Assembly (NCBI RefSeq): GCF_001879695.1
Contig: NZ_MNBL01000004.1
Location: forward strand, 1-34,793
Direction: 5' to 3'
Origin: Nioella sediminis
GTDB lineage: Bacteria > Pseudomonadota > Alphaproteobacteria > Rhodobacterales > Rhodobacteraceae
Length of the DNA stretch: 34,793 bases
Part shown: positions 27,623-34,793 of the stretch, one piece after another
Layout: the number at the start of each line of letters is the position of its first letter
Position numbering within the stretch: position 1 is the first letter of the stretch
The notes under the pieces: model-generated
Databases searched by the model: none
What the model saw: the letters and a program-made list of their open reading frames with translations, nothing else
What the model was told of the DNA's origin: nothing
Made by a program: the position numbers and the translations under genes

Positions 27623-28606
27623 TCAAGGGAGCGTTGCTTGAACCCATTCAAGAATGACGTCTGTCACCGGCCCGGTCATCGCGGGGCTGAGGATATCGCC
27701 CGCAATGACATGAAAAAACGGGTCCGCTCCTGTTTCCGGCAGGTCTTGCGGGGCCAAGGTCACCGCGCCGCCCCATCCGGCCAGAAAGTCGCGCGTGGCC
27801 GCAGCCGATACCACGCGGTCGTTGTCGGAGAAAACCGCCAGAACCGGGGCTGAAACGCCGCTGTAGTCGCGTGCCCTCGTTTCTCTCATCAGGGTGCCGA
27901 GGCTGGTCAACACCCCGGTGCCATAGCGCGTGGTCCAGTAACGCCCATGTCCCTCGTTCAGGGCGTCCCAGGCCCGTTCCTCGCCTGCCAGCAGCGGCAC
28001 GATCCGGCGGGCGAAGGCCAGCTCGGTGATCACGGCAGAGCGGTTCATGACGCGGAAATTCGGCGACACCATCACCAGGCCCACCACATCGGCGGCCATG
28101 TCGGGCTCGGTCATGGCATAGCTGGCCAGCGTCGCGCCGGTCGACGTTCCGATGATCAGCACCCGTTCCCCCGCCGCGCGGGCCAGATCGAGGAACAGCG
28201 CCGCATCATTGGCCCACTGACTGGCCGTTGCCGCCGCCAGCGCATCCCCGCCGCGCCCATGCCCGGTCAGGCGCGCATAGATCAGGTTCGCGCCCAGCGC
28301 TTCGGCCACATTGTCGGGCACCGGGCGGATTTCTTCGGATGTGGCGGAGAAGCCATGCAGATAGAGGATCGAGAGCGGCGTCTGCATCTCGGGCTCACCG
28401 GCCCAGATCACCCGCGCCTCCACGCCCGGTGTGATGTCGTCGAACGCCGCCTCGCGCGCGGCCAGAACCTCGGCAATCCCCCTGCCCTCGATGGACACCG
28501 GCGCGCCACGTTCGATGCGTTCACGCGGGCCGAGGATCAGGAGACCACCGGCCAGCGCCACCACAGAGACAATGGTAAGGACCAGGCGTTTGAGCAACCT
28601 AAACAT
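27623..28606 (-). CDS. Membrane-anchored alpha/beta hydrolase (lysophospholipase-like)
   Basis: A 327-residue hydrolase with an N-terminal membrane anchor (about 5-27, LKRLVLTIVSVVALAGGLLIL), so the enzyme probably faces the periplasm. LYLHGFSATSEEI gives the oxyanion loop, the nucleophile Ser is in LIIGTSTGATLAS, the Asp in FSDNDRVVS and the His in DPFFHVIAGDILSP. The LTGHGRGGD segment suits serine aminopeptidase/monoacylglycerol-lipase-type enzymes. Substrate unknown. Its start overlaps the previous gene by eight bases. Confidence 0.88.
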   Translation of the reverse strand: MFRLLKRLVLTIVSVVALAGGLLILGPRERIERGAPVSIEGRGIAEVLAAREAAFDDITPGVEARVIWAGEPEMQTPLSILYLHGFSATSEEIRPVPDNVAEALGANLIYARLTGHGRGGDALAAATASQWANDAALFLDLARAAGERVLIIGTSTGATLASYAMTEPDMAADVVGLVMVSPNFRVMNRSAVITELAFARRIVPLLAGEERAWDALNEGHGRYWTTRYGTGVLTSLGTLMRETRARDYSGVSAPVLAVFSDNDRVVSAAATRDFLAGWGGAVTLAPQDLPETGADPFFHVIAGDILSPAMTGPVTDVILEWVQATLP

Positions 28607-29345
28607 GGGTCAGCACATCCTCGATGGCCGTCTCGATCCGCGACAGGCAATAGTCGTCGGAAAAGCGGTGATCGGCCCCCTTCACCAGTTCCAGCCGGAC
28701 ATCGGGGCCTTCCACATGATCCAGCAGGCGCAAGGCAACGGACATGTCCACATCCTCATCCGCCGTGCCTTGCAACAGCCGCACGGGGGCATTGACGGTC
28801 AGGGGGCTGCGCAGGACCAGTTGATTGCGGCCATCTTCGATCATGCGTTTGGTGATGATGTAGGGCTCACCATAGTCCGAGGGCAGAGCGACCTGCCCCG
28901 TTTCGGCCATCTCTGCCTTCTGGGCATCAGACCAGCTGTCCCACATCCCGTCCTCGGTGAAGTCGGGCGCGGCGGCGATGCCCACCAGCCCCGCCACCAA
29001 TTCCGGGTGCTTGCGGGCGAACAGCAGCGCCTGCCACCCGCCCATGGACGAACCAACGAGGATCTGCGGACCTTCGGTTAGGGTCAGGATCGCGGCCTCG
29101 GCATCCTCGGCCCAATCGCCGATACAGCCATCGGTGAAGGCGCCAGAGCTTTCGCCATGCCCCGAATAGTCGAACCGCAGGAAGGCGCGGCCGGTGCGCT
29201 TGGCCCAGGCCTCCAGATGCACCGCCTTGCTGCCCTGCATGTCGGATTTGAGCCCGCCCAGAAACACCACGCCCGGGCCCGTGCCAGAGCTTTGATGAAA
29301 GGCAATCCTGCGGCCCTGCTTGGTGGTCAGCGTTTGTGGGGTCAT
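28599..29345 (-). CDS. ABHD10-like alpha/beta hydrolase (thioesterase-like)
   Basis: A 248-residue cytosolic hydrolase. VVFLGGLKSDMQGSKA, FDYSGHGESSG, the nucleophile Ser in LVGSSMGGWQALL, Asp in LQGTADEDVD and His in VKGADHRFSDDY match bacterial relatives of mitochondrial ABHD10, an acyl-protein thioesterase/esterase. The true substrate here is unknown. It is the first gene of the minus-strand hydrolase series and diverges from thrS. Confidence 0.9.
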   Translation of the reverse strand: MTPQTLTTKQGRRIAFHQSSGTGPGVVFLGGLKSDMQGSKAVHLEAWAKRTGRAFLRFDYSGHGESSGAFTDGCIGDWAEDAEAAILTLTEGPQILVGSSMGGWQALLFARKHPELVAGLVGIAAAPDFTEDGMWDSWSDAQKAEMAETGQVALPSDYGEPYIITKRMIEDGRNQLVLRSPLTVNAPVRLLQGTADEDVDMSVALRLLDHVEGPDVRLELVKGADHRFSDDYCLSRIETAIEDVLTHV

Positions 29346-29482
29346 GTGGCGGCGTCCTCCCTGATCTTCCCCCCGGTTTTGCCTGCGGCGGGGAGATCGG
29401 ACAAGTTTTTATGCGTAGCGCCCTTGGAAATGCGCGAAGGTAGACGGCATGACATTGCGCCAAGCAGGGGCCGCCCCTACCC

Positions 29483-29515
29483 CATTAACCTTAACAGACG
29501 GGGTTAAGGTTAATG
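29483..29515. repeat. 13-base perfect inverted repeat upstream of thrS
   Basis: CATTAACCTTAAC (29483-29495) and GTTAAGGTTAATG (29503-29515) are perfect complements around a seven-base loop. Each arm holds a tandem TTAAC unit. No T-run follows and it lies between divergent genes, so an operator or cruciform is more likely than a terminator. Confidence 0.75.
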
Positions 29516-29554
29516 CCACGGGAACGGGATCAAGCCGGGCGGGTGCATCCGCCC

Positions 29555-29583
29555 TTGACACAAGGCGCGTCTGACGTCACCTC
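29555..29583 (+). promoter_or_regulatory. Candidate thrS promoter
   Basis: A perfect TTGACA (29555-29560) lies 94 bases before the thrS ATG. The matching -10 is poor (about 29577-29583), which is common in alphaproteobacteria. The box is 40 bases downstream of the inverted repeat. Confidence 0.4.
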
Positions 29584-29653
29584 TGCCCACCGAAACCATA
29601 TACCCGCAACCGGGCGTTCCGTGGGCGCCAAACCGACGAGGAGCTTGTGCCAG

Positions 29654-31633
29654 ATGGCCCAGATTTCCCTGACTTTCCCCGATGGCAATTCCCGTGACTA
29701 CGCGGCTGGCGTGACGCCTGCCGATGTGGCCGCCGGCATTTCCAACTCGCTGGCCAAAAAGGCCATCTCCGCCACCGTGAACGGTGCCCATTGGGACCTG
29801 CAATGGCCGATCGAGCAAGACGCCTCCATCGCCATTCACACCATGCAGGACGACACGCAGGCGCTGGAGCTGATCCGCCATGACTGCGCCCATATCATGG
29901 CCCGCGCCGTGCAGGAGATCTGGCCCGACGTAAAGGTCACCATCGGCCCGGTGATTGAAAACGGCTGGTATTACGATTTCGACCGGGCGGAGCCGTTTAC
30001 CCCCGAAGACCTCGGCCAGATCGAAGCCAAGATGCGCGAGATCATCAACCGCCGCGATCCGGTCACCACCGAGATCTGGGAGCGCGACCGCGCGGTCAAG
30101 TTCTACGCGGCCAATAACGAGCCCTACAAGGTGGAGCTGATCGAGGCCATTCCCGGCGACGAACCGCTGCGCATGTATTGGCACGGGCATTGGCAGGATC
30201 TCTGCCGTGGTCCGCATCTTCAGCATACCGGGCAGGTTCCGGCGGATGCGTTCAAACTGATGAGCGTCGCGGGCGCCTACTGGCGTGGCGACAGCAATCG
30301 CGCCATGCTGCAACGGATTTACGGCGTCGCTTTCCGCAACAAGAACGATCTCAAGGCGCATCTGACGATGCTGGAGGAGGCCGCCAAGCGCGACCACCGC
30401 AAGCTTGGCCGCGAGATGAACCTCTTTCACATGCAGGAAGAAGCGCCCGGTCAGGTCTTCTGGCATCCGGGCGGCTGGACGATCTACACCACGCTTCAGG
30501 ACTATATGCGCCGCAAGCAGCGCGCCGGGGGCTACCGCGAGATCAACACGCCGCAGGTCGTGGACCGCAAGCTGTGGGAAGCCTCGGGCCACTGGGAAAA
30601 GTACCAGCATCACATGTTCATCGTCGAAGTGGATGAAAGCCGCGATGGCGAGAATGACGATGCCTCCGCCAAGAACCGCGCCGAAACGCGGATCAATGCG
30701 CTGAAGCCGATGAACTGCCCCTGTCACGTGCAGGTGTTCAACCAGGGCCAGAAAAGCTATCGCGATCTGCCGCTGCGGCTGGCGGAATTCGGGTCCTGCG
30801 CGCGGTTCGAACCCTCGGGCGCGCTGCACGGGATCATGCGGGTGCGGGGCTTTACCCAGGATGACGCGCATATCTTCTGCACCGAGGATCAGATCCAGGA
30901 GGAATGCGCGCGGTTCATCGACTTCCTCGCCAATGTCTATGAAGAGCTTGGCTTCCCCGAGTTTGAAATCCGCTTCGCCACCCGCCCCGAAAAGCGCGTC
31001 GGCAGCGATGAAAGCTGGGACTATGTCGAAGGCGCGCTGGAAAACGCGATCAAGGCCGTGGGCCGCGATTACACGCTGGAACCGGGCGACGGGGCGTTCT
31101 ACGGGCCGAAGCTCGACTTCTACCTGACCGACGCCATTGGCCGGGTCTGGCAGTGCGGCACATTCCAGGTCGATCCGAACCTGCCCGAGCGGCTGGATGC
31201 GAACTACACCGGTGAGGACGGGGCCAAGCACCGGCCCTTCATGCTGCACCGCGCCTGCCTTGGGTCGTTCGAGCGGTTCATCGGCATTCTGATCGAGAAC
31301 TGGGAAGGCAAGCTGCCCTTCTGGCTGGCCCCGCGTCAGGTGGTCGTGGCCTCCATCGTGTCCGAGGCGGATGACTATGTGCAGGAGGTCGTGGCAGCCC
31401 TGACCGCGCAGGGCGTGCGGGCCGAGGCCGATATCCGCAACGAGAAGATCAACTACAAGGTCCGCGAACATTCCGTGGGCAAGGTGCCGGTGATCCTCGC
31501 CATTGGCCGCAAGGAGGTGGAGGACCGCACCGTCACCGTCCGCCGCCTTGGGGAAAAGCAGACCTCGGTCCTGTCGCTGGACGAGGTGGTTGCAAGCCTC
31601 GCCGCCGATGCAATCGCGCCCGATCAACGCTGA
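29654..31633 (+). CDS. thrS: Threonine-tRNA ligase
   Basis: A 659-residue class II aminoacyl-tRNA synthetase. The TGS domain (about 1-60) opens [16 protein letters not shown]. The editing domain has HDCAH (76-80) and [10 protein letters not shown]. In the catalytic core, zinc is expected at Cys355 ([10 protein letters not shown]) with further His residues; motif 2 is [15 protein letters not shown] and motif 3 lies around [15 protein letters not shown]. The C-terminal anticodon-binding domain follows WLAPRQVVV. The ATG at 29654 has GAGGAG upstream; a longer frame to 29513 begins inside the inverted repeat and was rejected. A strong terminator follows. Confidence 0.97.
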
Positions 31634-31653
31634 TCACAGCCCGATCTGACGAC

Positions 31654-31685
31654 AAGGCCGGTCCCGACATGGGGCCGGCCTTTTC
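31654..31685 (+). terminator. Rho-independent terminator of thrS
   Basis: AAGGCCGG.CCC (31654-31664) pairs with GGG.CCGGCCTT (31671-31682), followed by TTTT. It lies 21 bases past the thrS stop. Confidence 0.85.
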
Positions 31686-31735
31686 AGTTGATCCAGGTCA
31701 TATCCCCCTGCGCGGCCCCGCGCTTAAGTCGGTGC

Positions 31736-32803
31736 ATGACAGCGCCAACCAAATCCACGACCGCCCCAAAATCCATCCTCGTCACCGGCGGGGCAGGCTT
31801 TCTTGGGATCAACCTGATCCGATACCTGCTGGACCGGGGCCATTCCCTGCGCAGTTGGGACATTGCCCCCTTCACCTACCCCGAGGCGGACCGGATCGAC
31901 GTTTTGCAGGGCGATATCCGCGACCTCGCGCTTCATGATCGCGCCTTCAAGGGCATCGACATCGTCATTCATTGCGCCGCAGCCCTGCCACTGGCCAGCG
32001 CAGAGGAAATTCATTCCACCAATGTGGACGGCACCCATATGCTGCTGTCATCTGCGCTGCGCAAAGGCATCCGCCGCTTTGTTCATATCTCCTCAACCGC
32101 CGTCTACGGCATCCCAGATCACCACCCGCTGGTGGAGGCTGACCCGATGCAGGGCGTGGGGCCTTACGGGGAATCGAAAGTGGCCGCGGAAAAGCTTTGC
32201 CGTCAGTTTCGCGCGGATGGGCTGATTCTGCCGGTGCTGAGACCCAAGAGTTTTGTCGGCCCGGAACGGCTCGGCGCGTTCGAACTGCTCTATGATTTCG
32301 CCTCGACCGGGCATAATTTCCCGGTCCTCGGATCGGGCCAGAACCGCTATCAGCTGCTGGATGTGGACGACCTGAACGAAGCGATCTGCCTGAGTGCATT
32401 TGGCGAGGCCCAGACCGTCAACGACACGTTCAACATTGGCGCGGCAGAGTTTGGCACCATGCGCGAAAGCTTTCAGGCGGTGCTGGACCGGGCAGGTTTT
32501 GGCAAACGCATCATCGGCTTTCCCGCCACCCCCGCCATCTGGACCCTGCGCGGGCTGGAGGCGGTGCATCTCTCGCCGCTCTATAAATGGATTTACGAGA
32601 CCGCGTCGAAGGACAGTTTCGTCAGCATCGACCGCGCCCGAGAGAAACTGGGCTTCGTGCCGCGCCATTCCAATATCGACGCGCTGCTGCGCAACTTCGA
32701 CTGGTATCTGGCGAACCGTGACCGGATCGCCAAGGGCGCGGGCGTGACCCACAGGGTGCCATGGAAACGCGGCGCTCTTTCGGTGCTGCGCGCGGTGCTG
32801 TAG
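31736..32803 (+). CDS. NAD(P)-dependent epimerase/dehydratase (extended SDR)
   Basis: A 355-residue enzyme. ILVTGGAGFLGINLIRYLL is the NAD(P)-binding Rossmann start (glycine motif GGAGFLG), with DIAPF ending beta-2 and HISSTAVYG the catalytic Ser/Thr region. The catalytic Tyr and Lys are in PYGESKVAAEK. The C-terminus FVSIDRAREKLGFVP is typical of sugar-nucleotide epimerases of the extended SDR group. Substrate unknown; no sugar genes are nearby. The ATG at 31736 was chosen; a TTG at 31688 is in frame. It stands alone after the thrS terminator and converges with the membrane protein gene. Confidence 0.88.
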   Translation: MTAPTKSTTAPKSILVTGGAGFLGINLIRYLLDRGHSLRSWDIAPFTYPEADRIDVLQGDIRDLALHDRAFKGIDIVIHCAAALPLASAEEIHSTNVDGTHMLLSSALRKGIRRFVHISSTAVYGIPDHHPLVEADPMQGVGPYGESKVAAEKLCRQFRADGLILPVLRPKSFVGPERLGAFELLYDFASTGHNFPVLGSGQNRYQLLDVDDLNEAICLSAFGEAQTVNDTFNIGAAEFGTMRESFQAVLDRAGFGKRIIGFPATPAIWTLRGLEAVHLSPLYKWIYETASKDSFVSIDRAREKLGFVPRHSNIDALLRNFDWYLANRDRIAKGAGVTHRVPWKRGALSVLRAVL

Positions 32804-32807
32804 CCCC

Positions 32808-33176
32808 TCAGAAGTGGCTCACTTCCTCATCCGGCCGCCCCGCCGCGATGGCCAGCAAACCACCCAGGCCGCAAAGGGCAATCGGGAACATGGTGAAGAC
32901 GCCGAAGCCGAAGGCGTAGTACATGCCCGCCGCCGACAGCAGCAGGAAGATACCACCCCACAGCGCCCGTGCCCGCGCCATGGCCCCGCCTGCCAGCGCC
33001 AGAATGGGCGATATGATGCTCGCCGCCTTGATCAGATCGGGGTTGTCCACCTGTCTGGCGATATCCGGCACCTCGCCGAAATGGTCGATGAAGGTCACGT
33101 AACCATAGCCGAAGAACCCGACGATCATTCCCAGAATGCCACCGATGATTCCCAGAACGAGGGCTGCGTTGCGCAT
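32808..33176 (-). CDS. Small integral membrane protein, unknown function (DUF4064-like)
   Basis: A 122-residue protein with four hydrophobic segments: about 3-27 (Gly-rich, LGIIGGILGMIVGFFGYGY), 50-68, 72-88 and 92-112. The Gly-rich first helix and the short middle loop (DHFGEVPDIARQVDNPD) resemble DUF4064-type proteins. The ATG at 33176 has ACGGAGAG upstream and a candidate promoter at 33214; a longer frame to 33248 was not used. No function is known. Its stop is four bases from the epimerase stop. Confidence 0.8.
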   Translation of the reverse strand: MRNAALVLGIIGGILGMIVGFFGYGYVTFIDHFGEVPDIARQVDNPDLIKAASIISPILALAGGAMARARALWGGIFLLLSAAGMYYAFGFGVFTMFPIALCGLGGLLAIAAGRPDEEVSHF

Positions 33177-33213
33177 GAAGGCTCTCCGTTGGTTTCTTGC
33201 CTGTTCGGAGCCC

Positions 33214-33242
33214 GAGATAGGCACGATCTGCCAGACAGCCAA
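33214..33242 (-). promoter_or_regulatory. Candidate promoter of the small membrane protein gene
   Basis: On minus, TTGGCT (33237-33242) and TATCTC (33214-33219) are 17 bases apart and about 40 bases before the ATG at 33176. Confidence 0.4.
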
Positions 33243-33476
33243 GCCCAAGGCACCACTTTCGGTTGAAACATTTCACCGACGGGACGAGGCGGCAGGCAGA
33301 AACCCGTCACCTTCCCGCCGGTGGAATCTTCCCCACAATTACATGATTTCATTCAATAATCACACCTTCCAACCCAACCGGCCCGCCTCACGCCACCCTG
33401 ACAGAGGGTCACGCACGCGTGCTTGACGGGCCTGTGACTGGCCAGTGATCGACCCGGCGACTTACCACTTTCCCAT

Positions 33477-33493
33477 CACCCGCTCGACGGGTG
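33477..33493. promoter_or_regulatory. Inverted repeat before bufA, possible operator
   Basis: CACCCG (33477-33482) and CGGGTG (33488-33493) are perfect complements around five bases. It lies between the weak promoter candidate and the AGGGAG ribosome binding site (33516-33521) of bufA. It could bind a regulator or form a leader hairpin. Confidence 0.4.
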
Positions 33494-33528
33494 GGACACG
33501 GAAAATATCAGTTTTAGGGAGCTACCCC

Positions 33529-33912
33529 ATGTCGACCCAAATCAAATCGCTGGCCCTGATGGGCGCCGTTGCCGCCGCACTTGGCGCCGTCACCACCACC
33601 TCTGCCTCCGCGCAGGCGATGGAGAAGTGCTACGGCGTGTCGCTGGCCGGTGAAAACGGCTGCGCCGCAGGCCCCGGCACCACCTGCGCCGGGTCCTCCA
33701 CCATCGACTATCAGGGCAACGCCTGGACGCTGGTCCCCGCCGGCACCTGCGCCGAGATCGAGCTGCCCGATGGCCGCATGGGCGAATCCGAGGCCTCGCT
33801 GGAAGCCGACGGTTACATCGGTCTGGCCCGCGACCTTCCCGATGGTCTGGCCGAGGATGTTCTGGCCCAGTACCGCGACGTCTCGATGATGGAAGAAGAA
33901 ATGGACAGCTGA
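33529..33912 (+). CDS. bufA1: DUF2282/BufA1-type bufferin precursor (Sec-exported, four conserved Cys)
   Basis: A 127-residue precursor. A Sec signal peptide (about 1-28, ending SASA) is followed by the core [15 protein letters not shown], with Cys34 and Cys45, then [16 protein letters not shown] (Cys53) and VPAGTC (Cys74). This four-Cys pattern matches DUF2282 bufferins: ribosomal peptides whose core cysteines are turned into copper-binding thiooxazoles by an MNIO enzyme and exported to the periplasm, where they buffer metal. The next gene is such an enzyme. Odd here is a tail of about 48 residues after Cys74, acidic and ending MMEEEMDS; usual members stop soon after the last Cys. The ATG at 33529 has AGGGAG seven bases upstream. 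Confidence 0.88.
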
Positions 33913-33927
33913 TCGCGCTGACCTTCA

Positions 33928-33952
33928 CCCCCGGCCCTCAACGGGCCGGGGG
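33928..33952 (+). other. Intercistronic hairpin between bufA and bufB
   Basis: CCCCCGGCCC (33928-33937) pairs perfectly with GGGCCGGGGG (33943-33952) across five bases. No T-run follows (GTTCTGCC), so it is likely an mRNA-stabilising or partial stop element, leaving more precursor than enzyme message. Confidence 0.75.
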
Positions 33953-33980
33953 GTTCTGCCAAAGACCCAAGGGACACGCC

Positions 33981-34793
33981 ATGTACGACCTCGCGCAGGA
34001 AAACCGTCTGCCCCAACTTGCGGGCATCGGCTACAAGCCCCAGCATTTCCAATCCCTTATCAGCGCGCCCGGCGCGGTCAGTTGGCTGGAGATCCATGCC
34101 GAAAACTACATGGGTGACGGCGGCCGCCCGCTGGCGCAACTGCGCGCGCTCGCGGATCGCTTTCCGATCTCGGTGCATGGTGTCGGCCTCTCTATCGGTG
34201 GCGAAGGCCCGCTCGATCCCGATCACCTCGCCCGCCTCAAGCATCTCTGCGACTGGCTGAACCCCGCCAGTTTCTCGGAACATCTCGCCTGGTCCACCCA
34301 TGGCGACCACTATCTGAACGACCTGCTGCCCCTGCCTTATACCGAGGCGACGCTGGCCCGCGTCGCAGACCACATCGACCAAGTGCAAGAGGTTCTGGGC
34401 CGTCCGATGCTGCTGGAAAACCCCTCCACCTATCTCGCCTTTGCCGAATCCACGATGGATGAGGTCACGTTTCTTTCGGAAATCGCAAAGCGCACTGGCT
34501 GCGGGCTGCTGCTGGATGTGAACAACGTCTTCGTCTCCGCCACCAACCAGAGCTGGGATCCGGTCGCCTATATCGACGCGTTCCCGCTGGCGCAGGTGGG
34601 GGAAATTCATCTGGGCGGCCATGACGAGGATGAGGATGACCATGGACAGCCCCTGCTGATCGACAGCCATGGGCGCGAAGTGGTCGATCCGGTCTGGACG
34701 CTCTACGCGCACACCATCGCGCGCGGCGGGGCAAAACCAACGCTGATTGAATGGGACAATAACGTGCCCGATTTCCCGGTACTGGCGGCCGAA
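33981..34793 (+). CDS. bufB: DUF692 family multinuclear iron oxidative enzyme (MNIO, BufB-type), partial at window end
   Basis: 271 codons are open to the last base without a stop, so the C-terminus is missing. [70 protein letters not shown] and LIEWDN follow the DUF692 order. Likely iron ligands are among Glu41, His66, His101, Glu146, Asp179/Asn181, His210, His214, Asp228 and Glu257, all present. Such enzymes use two or three irons and O2 to modify cysteines in a partner peptide; here the partner is the BufA1 precursor just upstream. The ATG at 33981 has AAGGGA six bases before it. A DUF2063 (BufC) gene is expected next. Confidence 0.92.

Follow-up and report, generated by a model that had tools for sequence, protein, structure and literature searches.

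Bufferins of type 1 (Buf1) are defined by four-cysteine DUF2282 precursors in which the central cysteines are modified and the outer ones disulphide-bonded, and their core genes encode the precursor, an MNIO enzyme, a DUF2063 protein and a DoxX protein (PMC12452194). Thiooxazole formation by the MNIO and its BufC partner, giving a copper-binding product, is reported for Caulobacter Buf1 (PMC12452194; PMC13097082), which chelates Cu(I) and Cu(II) and improves growth in copper excess (PMC12452194); 5-thiooxazoles have been argued for across the whole class, and a two-cysteine test peptide of fontiphorin is reported to lose 8 Da (PMC13097082). With respect to regulation, Buf1 clusters are described as containing sigma factor and NrsF genes (PMC12452194), and for the operon in Caulobacter a sigma-F promoter of sequence GTAACC-N16-CGAA has been published (PMC3511200). 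The captophorin systems (HvfABC/oxazolin and fontiphorin) share the Cys-rich precursor, the MNIO with a DUF2063-type partner and the 5-thiooxazole product, but carry EGKCG repeats in place of a DUF2282 core. TglHI (3-thiaglutamate) and MbnBC (methanobactin) share the MNIO iron site, and TglI has the BufC fold; their substrates and chemistry are different.

The locus of Nioella sediminis described here resembles the bufferin-1 operon of Caulobacter vibrioides, which we take to be CC3254-CC3257, in the order DUF2282 - DUF692 - DUF2063 - DoxX and in its four-cysteine precursor, here with a putative signal peptide. It differs in that the precursor bears a conserved acidic tail and in that the genome has neither a sigma-F-type promoter before bufA nor NrsF and instead carries a tandem palindrome upstream of the operon. 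It also differs in control from SMb20527-SMb20530 of Sinorhizobium meliloti, likewise an alphaproteobacterial DUF692/DUF2063 operon, which is under RpoE7 (ECF16) and a promoter of the GTAAC...CGAA kind (PMC6180224).

We have established which genes are present and in what order (with a contig gap between them), their family matches, the iron ligands and the BufC fold, and by the sequence features tested the operon is a bufferin-1 operon; by analogy with Caulobacter Buf1, its product would carry thiooxazoles and bind copper. The proposed scheme is as follows. BufA would be made with a signal peptide, and a complex of BufB (an iron MNIO) with BufC (a DUF2063/RRE-fold partner of PME-type 1) would oxidise its cysteines in the cytoplasm, the central Cys45 and Cys53 being the most likely to become 5-thiooxazoles. 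After export Cys34 and Cys74 would form a disulphide, and the mature peptide would bind excess copper in the periplasm. Transcription would be governed by a putative DNA-binding regulator at the tandem palindrome rather than by sigma-F/NrsF. We assign a probability of roughly 0.88 to this reading as a whole, i.e. a bufABC operon with a DoxX-type gene, maturation to thiooxazoles by BufBC, periplasmic copper binding and non-sigma-F control at 33411-33441. As an operon it is a further instance of a large, known class; more useful is the control element, of which we did not find a description in the literature searched.

Gene content and assembly of the operon

The window, that is the whole stretch of DNA analysed (34,793 bases), is the entire contig C132; the genome assembly totals 3.96 Mb and comprises 197 contigs. 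Two genes of the operon lie at its right end:

33529-33912, forward strand: bufA, bufferin-1 (DUF2282) precursor of 127 aa (translation; Pfam PF10048, 81.8 bits against a cut-off of 22.4)
33981-34793, forward strand: bufB, bufferin maturase of the MNIO family, formerly DUF692 (NCBIfam MNIO_BufB NF050167, 381.5 bits against a cut-off of 310; ligand mapping; C-terminal ends of relatives)

The bufA frame opens with ATG, and a GGGAG stretch ends 7 bases 5' of the start codon. The sequence-only reading had proposed a DUF2282 precursor with a signal peptide and four cysteines, followed by an MNIO/DUF692 enzyme, and the two gene assignments are borne out: besides the profile scores above, BufA has exactly four cysteines (34, 45, 53 and 74) behind a hydrophobic, signal-peptide-like N-terminal stretch, and BufB reaches 351 bits with MbnB_TglH_ChrH. 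The same reading had the operon cut by the window edge. The truncation is real, and its cause is an assembly gap: C132 stops where the window does, so that bufB runs open to the final base, and it ends about 13 codons short of the stop expected from the C-termini of relatives, the remainder of the operon being found on contig C143. The two partners looked for downstream are both on C143 in the expected order, a DUF2063 (BufC) gene at the start of the contig (86.1 bits, cut-off 27.2) and a DoxX-type membrane gene (33.9 bits, cut-off 23.6), followed by a convergent ArsC-family gene. DoxX is common but not obligatory in Buf1 operons.

The bufC gene begins at base 23 of C143. In a different frame, the contig opens with codons for QPALV followed by a stop, which four bases separate from the bufC ATG. 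Of the 24 BufB ends listed for relatives, 23 extend 11-17 residues beyond the last codon of the window (31 in L038), so that the C143 opening fits the missing bufB end with a small gap. Moreover, C143 is colinear with unbroken operons over about 2 kb (L006 and L007) or about 1.5 kb (L009). From this colinearity and the two contig ends, we infer that C132 and C143 are adjacent. Searches of the genome yielded one MNIO gene, one DUF2063 gene (bufC) and one DUF2282 gene above its cut-off. Among the neighbours, profile matches were obtained for an epimerase, ArsC and, weakly, DUF4064; the last is a small membrane protein divergent from bufA (32808-33176, reverse strand) at 22 bits, below the 32.1 cut-off. 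Other flanking genes, as named from their sequences, presumably include thrS, a cold-shock gene and thyX.

An MNIO without its C-terminal iron ligands would not have supported the assignment, but all nine ligands of TglH are kept. In TglH these are His71, His107, Glu151, Asp184, Asn187, His216, Asp229, His231 and Glu258 (PMC10880893), and a phmmer alignment gives H66, H101, E146, D179, N182, H210, D228, H230 and E257 as the BufB equivalents, identical in 81 of 81 BufB sequences. The activity of HvfB is reported to require three ligands (Asn, Asp and His) that were predicted for site 3 (PMC13419390). The closest named match of BufB is from Nioella nitratireducens (82% identity, residues 1-271). 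A model of BufC built from 23 sequences has a pLDDT of 92.3, and at E <= 0.001 it matches in the PDB only TglI (8hci, 8hi7; 7.7e-6 for 8hci_A) and NGO1945 (3dee; 2e-4), while phmmer matched the BufC sequence to no PDB chain. Scores against models of the related systems fall below their cut-offs: BufB obtains 243 of the 360 bits required for HvfB and 49.7 of 325 for MbnB, BufC obtains 58.1 bits (HvfC equivalog cut-off 142) and the DoxX protein 30.6 bits (HvfX equivalog cut-off 80). BufA matches no NCBIfam model and contains no EGKCG.

For comparison, 80 loci of relatives were collected; they were chosen for encoding BufB and thus give no measure of how frequent the operon is. Most are titled Rhodobacteraceae, a few titles differing (Maritalea, L007; Nocardioides, L081) or giving only a phylum or class. 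Rhodobacteraceae is taken here as broadly as in these record titles; for N. nitratireducens, of the order Rhodobacterales, the family is given as Paracoccaceae. BufB and BufC are encoded in all 80 loci, BufA in 79 and DoxX in 78, the absences falling at contig ends (BufA in L040; DoxX in L008 and L029).

The control region upstream of bufA

A strongly conserved block precedes bufA:

33408-33443, forward strand: conserved bufA control element, putative operator (36-column matrix, 38.7 bits)

Its 31-bp core (33411-33441) reads ACG-N4-CGTG-N4-ACG-N5-GTGA-N-TGG, consists of two CACGN4CGTG-like palindromes with a spacing of 15 bp and stops 87 bp short of the bufA ATG. Neither this element nor the conserved BufA tail figured in the sequence-only reading. 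The second-best score in the window, 9.6 bits, comes from this very site read on the opposite strand. The block shared with relatives reads TgACGC-N3-CGTG-N3-CACG-N4-CGTGAaTgG (lower case, less conserved). The element was scored in the 300 bp upstream of bufA in 78 relatives and the window (79 regions; L040 and L058, without a full bufA, were excluded), with matrices trained on one half and tested on the other, four times. In 69 of the 79 regions the held-out score exceeds every one of 316 shuffles (maximum 8.8 bits), the lowest held-out score of the window being 33.9 bits, and in these 69 regions a distance of 69-136 bp separates the end of the 36-column block from the start codon. Two further family members also have it (L216, 27.4 bits; L217, 27.9 bits). 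In other families of the class it was found in none of 30 loci (L086-L115; best 5.9 bits, L101 being cut near the start) and in none of 18 longer loci (L198-L215) from genomes shared with that set. Among the titles and abstract openings listed from open-access literature on bufferins, MNIO/DUF692 and DUF2282/DUF2063, none mentions such an element.

The ten regions below threshold are L010, L016, L018, L041, L054, L029, L019, L024, L020 and L048. In the first five, the element is replaced by GTAAC-N17-CGAA, with GTAAC at -74 to -114 (CGAA assigned by eye), and L029 has a weaker GTAAT-N16-CGAA promoter. By eye, L019 and L024 retain a similar block with one extra spacer base. L020 and L048 lack both NrsF and an element that reaches the threshold. 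A search for the sigma-F-type promoter GTAAC(C/A)-N16-CGAA over the 300 bp preceding the window's bufA found no GTAAC at all, and NrsF (PF06532) has no match in the genome, Caulobacter serving as positive control. We searched for NrsF in 36 genomes of relatives, namely all ten that lack the standard block and 26 out of the 68 that carry it. It is above cut-off in six (L010, L016, L018, L041, L054 and L029) and in none of the other 30, the 26 element-bearing genomes included; L009 gives a partial match that stays under the cut-off at 20.8 bits. In the first five, the surroundings of the NrsF gene overlap with the bufA locus, but not in L029. With the classes set beforehand, NrsF is present in 5/5 genomes with the promoter versus 1/31 of the others (Fisher p = 1.6e-5); the value becomes 5e-7 if L029, whose promoter was noticed only after its NrsF match, is moved to the sigma-F class, both tests ignoring relatedness. 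Among the 18 longer loci of other families, four have GTAAC-N17-CGAA by eye (L204, L206, L207 and L211).

This complementary distribution points to an unrecognised regulator of bufA, and we read the element as a double DNA site for a putative dimeric protein. The block could instead serve as a promoter for some unrecognised alternative sigma factor, or form a structured RNA leader. It stands in place of the sigma-F promoter, at 69-136 bp, and a sigma-70-like promoter was looked for between 33150 and 34050, together with a terminator, and neither was found. As to an RNA, 62-73% of cells pair over three possible dyads, and by an uncontrolled count both sides have changed in 118 of the 1430 paired cells. 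The pairing peaks have three centres 7.5 bp apart, two of which are the ACG-N4-CGT palindromes lying 15 bp apart. However, the best-conserved columns are precisely the near-invariant ACG/CGTG arms of these two palindromes, a nearly symmetric block of about 30 bp is unlike a -35/-10 pair, and Rfam has no match in 28000-34793. We regard a promoter or an RNA structure as rather unlikely. An operator for a dedicated regulator is the reading we retain, and for the family we consider it reasonably probable that most Rhodobacteraceae with such a bufferin-1 operon control it by a dedicated regulator, as yet without a name, which binds the tandem CACGN4CGTG site, is mutually exclusive with sigma-F/NrsF and has bufA as nearly its sole target. 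The control region provides an exact 31-bp bait for the sensor of copper (or of another stress) in bacteria devoid of sigma-F/NrsF.

Other words recur further upstream. In many relatives (e.g. L026, L030 and L079) CTGTAACATT and CTGTAACAA are found, mostly 205-300 bp before bufA, and TGTAACATT is present in 31 of the 79 upstream regions, about 0.05 being expected from shuffles. Many relatives also have distal GTAAC words, beyond about 200 bp from bufA, which were considered as sigma-F promoters and dropped; the CGAA-paired GTAAC sits at -74 to -114 in the five loci that have it.

The BufA precursor and its C-terminal tail

The precursor can be divided into three parts:

33529-33618, forward strand: putative Sec-type signal peptide, residues ~1-30 (sequence and alignment; boundary set by eye)
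33628-33750, forward strand: four-cysteine bufferin core, residues 34-74 (all four cysteines invariant in 82 BufA sequences)
33751-33909, forward strand: acidic C-terminal tail, residues 75-127 (conserved R83, G85, E88, L99 and R101-D102-L103-P104)

The 82 sequences are those of the 79 loci used for the upstream regions plus three tandem copies. The N-terminus is hydrophobic with an Ala-rich region, as judged by eye from sequence and alignment, and the single-chain AlphaFold model of BufA is poor (pLDDT 58.7). After Cys74, the N. sediminis protein continues for 53 residues, of which 16 are acidic and 3 basic. R83, G85, R101 and D102 are conserved in 100% of the sequences, E88 in 99%, L99 and P104 in 96% and L103 in 89%, and the motif RD[LIM][PA] follows the fourth cysteine in 82 of 82. 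Among 81 relatives, the tail is 22-29 residues long in 75 and 32 in one; the longer form is common to N. sediminis, L006, L007, L009, L043 and L047 and results from an insertion before RDLP and an extension after it. Outside the family, some DUF2282 precursors have a tail and many have none. As with the element, we did not find this tail described in the literature searched.

Such conservation raises the idea of a follower-type docking sequence for the RRE of BufC. For DUF2063/DUF2282 pairs, a motif specifically recognised by the RRE was not found in PMC12710340, so that a recognition site is missing and the tail is worth testing in this role. We compared BufC of precursors outside the family with BufC of the relatives (L207 was excluded from the BufC set; the tail-bearing outsiders include the RNLP cases L199 and L200 and exclude L203, which has RDPA and a short BufB frame). 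In the N-terminal DUF2063 part, tail-bearing outsiders resemble the relatives slightly more (0.75, n=5) than tail-lacking ones do (0.65, n=11). In contrast, the RRE part gives 0.49 versus 0.50 in the same comparison, and this test of co-adaptation is thus negative. Furthermore, preliminary evidence is mentioned for the signal peptide belonging to the recognition sequence (PMC12452194), and the tail is absent from many DUF2282 precursors of other families. Docking through the tail is therefore doubtful in our opinion, but the conserved tail does allow a simple truncation test of where on a DUF2282 precursor recognition by the maturation complex takes place. Tandem bufA copies precede a single bufB in L019, L024 and L045, with the conserved tail on both copies.

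Targets of the element and conservation of the operon

In the N. sediminis genome, the only exact site of the element is that before bufA. A wider regulon was sought and rejected there, the best of 19 other places reaching only 14.3 bits, and no obvious transcription factor occurs among the listed flanking genes common to the relatives. In the family, 100 genomes were searched with at most one mismatch, and from the matches listed 30 loci were retrieved, roughly one for each genome, of which 28 were scored. Twelve of the 28 exceed 20 bits: nine lie before bufA, one between bufA and bufB (L136 1498-1533, genome G350, where the element is not before bufA), one before an msrA-like gene and one in a coding region. 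This coding region we take to be T6SS-like. The msrA-like case (L145 1500-1535, genome G378) is a 25.0-bit element about 50 bp before a gene for an exported MsrA-like protein (methionine sulfoxide reductase). As a general target msrA was rejected, the element being found at one of 30 msrA loci in the family and at neither of the two in N. sediminis.

The operon might serve mainly against a stress other than copper, such as hypochlorite or other oxidants, chromate, gold or another metal. CC3254-CC3257 of Caulobacter belongs to the sigma-F response under chromium stress (PMC3511200), roles beyond copper have been raised for bufferins (PMC12452194), and the element before the msrA-like gene in G378 would fit an oxidative signal. 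Nevertheless, that case stands at one in 30 msrA loci, and the chelation of both copper ions and the benefit in copper excess reported for Caulobacter Buf1 (PMC12452194) argue for copper; a principal role in another stress is improbable. Copper buffering is thus the function we favour for the N. sediminis operon. That this operon is broken or silent, as the incomplete bufB of the assembly might suggest, is very improbable indeed, the cut being a contig end in an open frame with all ligands kept and a plausible remainder at the start of C143.

Across the class, DUF2282 was detected in 100 of the 289 genomes sampled. A plasmid search returned 137 records with a partial match, none of which covers 80% of the query. 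Within the set of relatives, the BufC frame is split into two ORFs in L043 (5771-7198) and L044 (5768-6607), and the DoxX gene of L043 is split as well; these may be either disrupted genes or assembly errors. Nocardioides marinus is an actinobacterium, and yet the locus L081 titled with this name carries a Rhodobacteraceae-like bufferin locus; its record title or its assembly is probably wrong.
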